35,825 nt of DNA, from positions 1 to 35,825 of the forward strand of contig NZ_JAIEWN010000040.1 in the NCBI RefSeq assembly GCF_019599295.1. Reading direction: 5' to 3'. Below are positions 24,420 to 26,006 of this stretch, piece after piece. A model generated the notes under the pieces. The model did not search any database and was not told the origin of the DNA. It saw nothing but the letters and a program-made list of their open reading frames with translations. How positions within the stretch are numbered: position 1 is the first letter of the stretch; each line of letters begins with the position of its first letter. The DNA comes from Oscillochloris sp. ZM17-4 (GTDB lineage Bacteria; Chloroflexota; Chloroflexia; Chloroflexales; Chloroflexaceae). A program made the translations under genes and the position numbers.

Positions 24420-26006
24420 TCAGGCCTGCCCGTCTGTGGCGGCCGGCGTCGGATCGGCGGGGGACTCGTCCGTCGGCTCATCGGGGGCGACAGGCGCGAC
24501 CTCAGCGATCACCGCGACGGGCGCGGCGTCCGCTGCGGGAGCCTCCAGCGCGGGCGCGGTGCCGGTGGCGATCTCCACAACGCGCGCGCGCAGCTTACGG
24601 TCGATGACCATGTTGGCGACGTTCGAGATCATCTGGGTGCGCAGGGTCTGGATAATATTCTCGCGCGAGGCCTCGTCGTAGTCGAGGGCCATGCGCTGAA
24701 CCTCGTCCTCGATCTCATCGCCAGTGATCTCAATGCCTTCGCGCTCCACCAGCTCGCGCAGGGCCAGAGTCGTCTGTGTCTGGCGCTCGGCATCGGGGAT
24801 GAGGGCCTCAACGGCCTGATCATGGGTCTGCCCGCGATACTGGAGCATCTGGTCGAGGGTGATGCCATAGCGCTCGAACTGCTGGCCCTGCTCGTGGAGC
24901 ATCTGGTCGGCCAGCTCGTAGACCATAACATCGGGGATGTCGAACTCGGTCGTGGCGACGAGCTGCTCGATGTAGGCGTTGATCGTCTGCCGCTCGGCGG
25001 CGTCGCGGGCGGCCTTCTCCAGATCGGCGTGCGCCTTGGCCCGCATGCCGTCGAGGTCGCCCTCGAAGTTCTCCAGGGTCGGCAGCTCCTCCCAGTCCGG
25101 CAGGATGCGCTCCTGGATGCTGTTCACCTTGACCTTGAACGTCACCGTCTTGCCGCGCACCGACTCATTGCCGTGATCGGCGGGCATGGTGGCCGTGACC
25201 TCGGCGCGGTCGCCGACGTTGAGGCCGATCAGGGCGCTGTGCAGCTCATCCACAAGGCGACCGGGGACAAGGTCGAGGATCTCCTCGCTGCCCTCGTCCT
25301 CGTCCTCGTCCTCGTCCTCGTCCTCGTCCTCGTCCTCGTCCTCGTCCTCGTCCTCGTCATCATCGTCAACGATCTCGCCATCCTCATCGATGATCGTGCC
25401 ATCGATGATCGCGTCCTCGTCACCGGCCTCATCGGCCTCGTCCTCGCCATCATCGTCGATGAAGTCGTCCGCGTCCGCGTCATCATCGAAGATCGTATCG
25501 AGGTTCACCTTCAGCTGGTCGCCCTCCTGAGAGGGGCGAGGATCATCAAGCTCCTTGAGGACCATGTGCTTCTCGCGCAGGCGATCCATCTCGCTGTCGA
25601 CATCCGCATCGGTGATCTCAGCCAGATCGAGGGGCGCCCGGATCTCGCGGTAGTCGCCGAGGGTGATCGTGGGCGCGACCGGGATCGTGACCCGGAAGAT
25701 GAACGGGTCAGATGATGTGATCGTATCGAGGGCCGGCGGGCCAACCGGGGTCAGCTTCTCCTGGTCGAGGGCGTCGCGGTAGGCCTTATTGATCAGGTCG
25801 TCGGTTGCCTCCTCCAAGAGCGCGGCGCGCCCATAGGAGCGCTCGATAATGGAGCGCGGCGCCTTCCCAGGACGAAATCCGCGGATGGGATACTTCTGCG
25901 AGAGGCGGCGCGCGGCTTTGTCGAGGCCGCGCTCAACCTGGTCCTTATCGAGCTCGATCTCCAAAGCCAACAAGCTTTTGGGCAGTTTTTCAGTAGTAAC
26001 CTTCAC
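24420..26006 (-). CDS. tig: Trigger factor with a long acidic Asp-Glu repeat insertion
   Basis: 528 residues against about 430-450 usual. Trigger factor is the ribosome-bound chaperone. The N-domain has the ribosome-docking signature [19 protein letters not shown]. The PPIase-like domain then starts with [14 protein letters not shown] and is interrupted by about 75 acidic residues, including eleven consecutive Asp-Glu pairs. It resumes with [23 protein letters not shown] and [15 protein letters not shown]. The helical C-domain follows, then an Ala/Pro/Glu-rich tail of about 45 residues. The insertion lies where the PPIase active-site flap should be, so isomerase activity is doubtful. First gene of tig-clpP-clpX. 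Confidence 0.95.
25293..25358. repeat. Hexanucleotide microsatellite (CTCGTC)11 in tig
   Basis: Eleven perfect tandem copies of CTCGTC (GACGAG on the coding strand), encoding Asp-Glu eleven times. The unit is a multiple of three, so copy-number changes would alter protein length without frameshift. Confidence 0.97.

Follow-up and report, generated by a model that had tools for sequence, protein, structure and literature searches.

The trigger factor of Oscillochloris sp. ZM17-4 carries a long acidic loop in its FKBP-like head, and comparison of homologous sequences indicates that the same loop has been expanded in several lineages of the order with different in-frame repeat units, its length differing even between nearly identical proteins. 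As judged from these alignments, the length of the loop evolves and its charge is kept, while its sequence is not. There is good evidence for recurrent expansion of the aligned loop across lineages of the order, and the loop is a real and probably selected feature. We tentatively regard the protein, at slightly less than an even chance, as an ordinary trigger factor with a hypervariable, disordered and polyanionic head loop that has grown by slippage, has its charge under selection and acts as an electrostatic competitor. The length of core translation chaperones usually varies little. A recurrent expansion in which charge is kept and sequence is discarded provides a natural series of loops from 28 to 104 residues for examining which roles, besides catalysis, the trigger factor head has, and it bears on the way in which simple repeats turn into functional parts of core proteins. 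No description of such an expanded trigger factor loop was found in the literature searched, a scope that leaves most subscription journals outside.

The trigger factor gene and its neighborhood

The window, i.e., the whole stretch of 35,825 nucleotides that was analyzed, contains the gene and its neighbors at the following positions.

24420..26006, minus strand: tig, trigger factor, 528 aa, GTG start (TIGR00115, Trigger_N and Trigger_C, fold match to 1w26, single copy)
25854..25880, minus strand: ribosome-binding signature GFRPGKAPR, residues 43-51 (alignment of trigger factors)
24423..24542, minus strand: C-terminal tail of low confidence, residues 489-528 (AlphaFold2 model)
23644..24366, minus strand: clpP (CLP_protease, 244.4 bits)
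22192..23487, minus strand: clpX (zf-C4_ClpX, AAA_2 and ClpB_D2-small)

The open reading frame at 24420-26006 on the minus strand is a genuine trigger factor gene. Its product scores 272.4 bits against TIGR00115 (curated cut-off 180.2), Trigger_N (131.6 bits) and Trigger_C (94.8 bits) are recognized by Pfam, and a search of its own genome returned this one match, hence a single copy. Downstream of it, clpP and then clpX lie on the same strand, forming a tig-clpP-clpX cluster. The N-terminal ribosome-binding domain has the GFRxGxxP motif, with G43, F44, R45, G47, P50 and R51 invariant across 16 aligned trigger factors, and the C-terminal substrate-binding domain with its arms is identified both by Trigger_C and by the match of the model to 1w26 over residues 1-484.

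An earlier note on this DNA, made from the sequence alone, had called the chaperone 80-100 residues longer than usual. The protein is indeed 96 aa longer than E. coli trigger factor (432 aa), but the loop accounts for only ~50 residues (75 vs. 20-24 in short-loop relatives), and much of the remaining excess is the low-confidence C-terminal tail. Relatives of trigger factor are also encoded at 19 loci on IMG/VR viral contigs of 12-266 kb (L148-L166). Three of these were checked with Pfam (L148, L150 and L165) and have all three trigger factor domains; such genes may be phage-borne or belong to flanking host DNA.

Position of the acidic loop in the FKBP-like head

25287..25511, minus strand: expanded acidic loop, residues 166-240 between alignment anchors, 48 Asp/Glu, net charge -47 (alignment, charge count and model)
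25293..25358, minus strand: (GACGAG)11 array, Asp-Glu x 11, residues 217-238 (repeat scan)
25365..25409, minus strand: 15-residue segment within the loop, a low-confidence hairpin in the model (alignment and model)
25149..25187, minus strand: true FKBP flap (80s loop), intact, 13 residues, 274-286 (alignments and model)

The protein was modeled by AlphaFold2 with 14 homologues from viral contigs (pLDDT 80.2, pTM 0.62); a single-sequence fold was poor (pLDDT 53.9) and was set aside. The model, with which a Foldseek search was also run, matches E. coli trigger factor 1w26 with Z 18.5 over 408 aligned residues. Its head has an FKBP fold, in that residues 157-302 match SlyD 3cgm with Z 10.5 and an rmsd of 2.4 over 82 residues, and the Pfam FKBP_C score of the protein lies below the cut-off (19.1 vs. 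21.1 bits). The insert falls between the strands 164-173 and 240-245, which is the region of the FKBP 40s loop in the alignment to E. coli trigger factor, in an alignment of 15 relatives and in the model. Residues 181-206 and 215-236 of the loop have pLDDT below 50, and the loop is thus predicted to be disordered in a head whose flap and fold are intact.

The acidic stretch had previously been taken to replace the PPIase flap. This is ruled out, as the alignments and the model place a flap at residues 274-286 and the insert in the preceding 40s loop. Two further candidates were rejected. The insert is not a known domain, with no Pfam or NCBIfam family at the site (E up to 0.1) and no confident order in the model, and the protein is not a SlyD-like chaperone with an insert in the flap, given the 40s location, the pLDDT below 50 and the intact flap.

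The residues described as key to PPIase activity in E. coli trigger factor (PMC9527764) are E178, I195, F198, Y221 and F233. By alignment to the E. coli protein the corresponding residues in the window are D, V, L, H and F, so that only F233 is unchanged and four of the five differ, although the equivalent of E178 falls within the repeat, where the alignment is uncertain. F198 is also absent from short-loop relatives in the order. Therefore the erosion of the PPIase pocket is separate from the insert, and the loop as the cause of the pocket loss is ruled out.

The protein can be compared with several known systems. It shares with E. coli trigger factor (1w26) the three-domain fold, the GFRPGKAPR signature and the tig-clpP-clpX gene order, and differs from it by the 75-residue acidic head loop (vs. 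~20), the extra C-terminal tail and the eroded PPIase pocket. The chloroplast CrTIG1 (PDB 7zgi; PMC9527764) likewise has a deviating 40s loop, strongly negative head loops and cradle, and changed PPIase key residues; the charge is, however, described for its 80s and 50s loops, and a long repeat insert is not among the features described in the portion of that report available. SlyD and SlpA (PDB 3cgm and 4dt4; Z 10.5 and 9.9) are also FKBP domains with a loop insertion, but theirs is a folded domain in the flap, whereas the window's is a predicted disordered acidic repeat in the 40s loop.

The repeat array in the window

Exactly eleven perfect GACGAG units were counted at 25293-25358, and the loop has 75 residues with 48 Asp/Glu, both in agreement with the earlier description of eleven units within an acidic stretch of about 75 residues. 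The longest run of period six in the window is 67 bases, compared to at most 18 in 100 dinucleotide shuffles. The uniformity of codons in the array by itself says little: among eight genes of the window GAC makes up 61% of Asp codons and GAG 97% of Glu codons, at which usage 11 GAC and 11 GAG would arise with a chance of ~0.003. The exact-repeat purity of the array was reached by 51 of 2000 synonymous shuffles, and among the rows examined purity is clearly above synonymous shuffles in some only. Throughout the 6.69-Mb genome, (GAY GAR)x4 matches at tig only (8 overlapping matches; reversed control 0), as does (GAN)x10 (16 overlapping matches; 2 for the reversed control pattern), and the latter scan found no second run of ten acidic codons elsewhere in the genome. 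A contig scan with query patterns that included a low-complexity stretch yielded one distant locus.

Loop length among relatives

Of the 99 trigger factors aligned, all 33 from other orders have a loop of 17-20 residues. Within the window's order it is 20-24 residues long in 41 of 66 proteins and 28-104 residues long in the remaining 25. The long loops are found in every row of the window's own genus g1 (5/5), genus g9 (8/8), family f2 (4/4) and family f3 (8/8). Acidic or Asp-His loops also occur in genera g6 and g10, where the genes are split over two contigs. The earlier note had proposed an alignment of Chloroflexi trigger factors as a check; the one made here did not show an invariant copy number among the relatives.

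The loop table covers 66 of the 82 genomes of the order and includes two rows (G036 and G020) that lack part of the N-terminus; left out were split or partial genes (G004, G010, G014, G043, G052, G121 and G129), genomes with no match (G007, G059 and G140), one-piece genes of ordinary span (G151 and G153) and G154-G157. The set from other orders comprises the 33 trigger factors that were fetched and aligned, with split or partial ones (e.g., G137, G144, G116, G135 and G092) excluded. Outside the class, 72 near-full one-piece matches, counted by hand from a survey of 91 genomes (10 of them from the window's order), show no more than 26 additional residues across the entire gene.

The loop was removed and a tree was built by a "quick" method from the 66 rows of the order together with ten of the other 33. 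This tree requires three changes between long and short loops, two of which are forced by well-supported branches. Gains and losses cannot be separated by such a count; that the loop is short in all ten outgroup rows suggests gains.

In family f6, from another order of the class, the true flap itself holds a long acidic insert of low complexity in four of five rows (L074-L077), with TAEGATE repeats in L076. A second loop of the trigger factor head has thus been enlarged in this family.

Repeat units, codon usage and charge

An in-frame expandable acidic loop, as the earlier note had envisaged, is borne out between species, since both loop length and repeat unit differ in all five full-length congeners. 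The units in genus g1 are (GACGAG)11 in the window, three 30-base copies in G005, runs of Asp-Glu and Gly-Glu in G003, a 9-base unit repeated about 12 times in G001 and mixed acidic codons in G002. The 15-residue segment of the window's loop is recognizable in G003 and partly in G001. At a finer scale, two relatives of family f3 agree at all 400 residues compared outside the loop, and their loops have 76 and 71 residues; in the DNA outside the loop the two genes are 96.6% identical and show 41 synonymous differences. Thus, as at a contingency locus, a tandem repeat differs in length between close relatives (one genome per species).

If selection maintains the acidic residues, then substitutions within the repeat should be concentrated at synonymous positions. 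The six poly-Asp loops of family f3 have 326 codons (160 GAT, 134 GAC, 28 GAA, 1 GAG and 3 Ala), of which 323 are GAN. Across the 15 pairs, which are not independent, the poly-Asp run shows 0 differences at the first codon position, 0-1 at the second and 7-21 at the third. This bias matches the prediction of purifying selection for acidic residues, and these codons provide fair evidence that acidity is kept by selection in the loop. Copying of mixed GAT/GAC units could keep the runs acidic with less selection than is apparent.

Long loops average 57% Asp/Glu and 3.6% Lys/Arg, and the C-terminal tails of the same proteins have 18% Asp/Glu. The mean net charge is -36.6 in the 25 long loops (range -7 to -66) and -4.5 in the 41 short loops. 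Some g9 loops are weakly acidic and non-repetitive, e.g., 15 of 55 residues are Asp/Glu in G035.

Acidic runs in other genes of the order

A (GAN)20 run is present in 24 of the 82 genomes of the order (reversed control 0). In 10 of these genomes trigger factor accounts for every match, and in the other 14 none lies within the fetched trigger factor, so the idea that such runs are peculiar to trigger factor in this order is ruled out. Instead, the runs in other genes point to a general tendency of the order to Asp runs. We read 16 loci from 12 of the 14 genomes, leaving out G016, G149 and a second place in G027. They include two IF-3 tails, both confirmed by Pfam, and three proteins resembling one subtilase (Pfam on L134 only); the rest are short acidic open reading frames and, by eye, mostly exported proteins. 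Among the genes with such runs, trigger factor is a repeated cytosolic target. In the subtilase (L134, L135 and L144), found in some relatives, a poly-Asp run of ~20 or more residues lies inside the peptidase domain, beside cysteines.

For IF-3, the tails of 17 genomes out of 20 were read. The protein carries acidic repeats, e.g., (LDDEE)n, in its C-terminal tail in the window's genus (L170 in G002, L172 in G001, L173 in G005, L174 in G000 and L176 in G003), and an acidic tail is also present in some other relatives (L140, L141, L169, L171 and L175). G005 has about seven L-D-D-E-E units; in the genome of the window itself (G000, contig C106) three units precede a stretch of 100 N, which is followed by an apparent bL35. 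Among the genomes read, those of f3 and f4 have a short tail, so tail and trigger factor loop do not strictly go together.

Possible functions of the loop

In the mechanism that we favor, replication slippage and unequal exchange would supply the changes in length, and selection would remove changes that lose acidic residues, leaving charge conserved and sequence not. The polyanionic strap would then act by electrostatic competition, either for basic clients or for the basic tip that binds the ribosome. In the dimer of E. coli trigger factor, which is the sole source of the dimer geometry used here, the part of the head's inner face that surrounds residues 165, 190 and 220 is close to the ribosome-binding domain of the partner, and the KD is 1.7, 9 and 30 uM at 100, 250 and 500 mM KCl, i.e., binding is weaker with salt (PMC5722895). 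A strap of net charge -47 between the equivalents of residues 165 and 190 would be placed to clasp the basic tip of the partner or of its own chain, or might instead clasp a basic client in the cradle. Such clasping would shift the balance among stored, client-bound and ribosome-bound chaperone, with loop length setting its strength. Furthermore, in the simulations of another study a head loop touches ribosomal protein bL17 (PMC12752688), and this contact could be a further way for head charge to matter. We infer that electrostatic competition is the most likely single job of the loop, the main rival being tolerated slippage. Several observations count against the mechanism: 41 of the 66 relatives in the order lack the expansion, some g9 loops are weakly acidic, Asp runs are a tendency of the whole order, and there is no sign that tip and loop have co-evolved, as long-loop proteins have no more charge on the basic ribosome-binding tip (+6 in the window) than short-loop ones (4.8 vs. 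4.5).

It is quite possible that the loop has no specific job, with GC-rich GAN repeats gathering by slippage in a surface loop of a head that much of the chaperone's work can do without, and acidity merely avoiding aggregation or RNA binding. The window's GC content of 68.4%, the changes at four of the five PPIase key residues, the change of F198 in short-loop relatives as well, and the Asp runs in other proteins of the order could all be explained this way, and PMC5402958 describes PPIase activity as dispensable for co-translational folding. On the other hand, repeats that are only tolerated would not be expected to stay acidic while synonymous positions vary, nor to expand one and the same loop in several lineages, nor to leave the C-terminal tails of the same proteins far less acidic; in addition, no other gene of the window's genome has a (GAN)x10 run.

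The earlier note had suggested that length changes could tune charge near the ribosome exit or bind basic nascent chains; this is one among several conceivable roles. The loop could alternatively be a polyanion devoted to clients, shielding basic nascent or ribosomal proteins by analogy with the acidic parts of dedicated ribosomal-protein chaperones. We consider this unlikely: Thermotoga maritima trigger factor has been solved with ribosomal protein S7 in its cavity (PMC5722895; PDB 3gu0 and 3gty) and the cradle of the chloroplast protein is very negative, as are loops of its head (PMC9527764), but the short-loop relatives have basic ribosomal proteins too. Acl4 and Tsr2, which possibly use negative charge to hold basic proteins in a comparable way, are eukaryotic and non-homologous.

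More doubtful still is a common role for the head loop of trigger factor and the tail of IF-3, a reading that has its basis in the acidic IF-3 tails of the genus. Both would be acidic repeats prone to slippage, which as mimics of RNA would vie with the ribosome for the basic binding sites of the two factors themselves and whose length would serve as an evolvable dial of occupancy.

Asp/Glu repeats alone bind metals weakly. A loop that binds divalent metals, like the His-rich tail of SlyD, is very improbable for the window, where the loop has no His or Cys, even though Asp-His repeats stand at the site in G014. The gene of G014 (L058 and L059) is split over two contigs, and its repeats may bind metal.

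Possible repeat instability and assembly

Among the 24 long-loop genomes, three have a contig end at the loop (G010, G014 and G043), compared to 0.22 expected from contig numbers (P = 0.0015, Poisson); this comparison assumes a loop of 80 residues in each of the three split genes and uses rounded genome sizes, and one of the two ends in G014 lies about nine residues past the loop. Breaks per base are also higher in the loop than in the rest of the gene (3 vs. 3, P = 0.004, Fisher's exact test). These contig ends may reflect unstable repeats or merely hard assembly. That the repeat itself is an assembly or sequencing artefact, which these ends might suggest, is hardly credible, since the 67-base array lies inside a 53-kb contig with its frame open and long loops are also present in genomes of 1 to 4 contigs (G032, G035, G037, G053 and G099).

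Repeats of another kind were observed between genes. The window has intergenic arrays of 7-base units at 4196-4274, 14168-14233, 20645-20734, 22122-22189, 27353-27388 and 34538-34608, which are often paired as reverse complements (e.g., ATTGCAG/CTGCAAT) and could form long hairpins.
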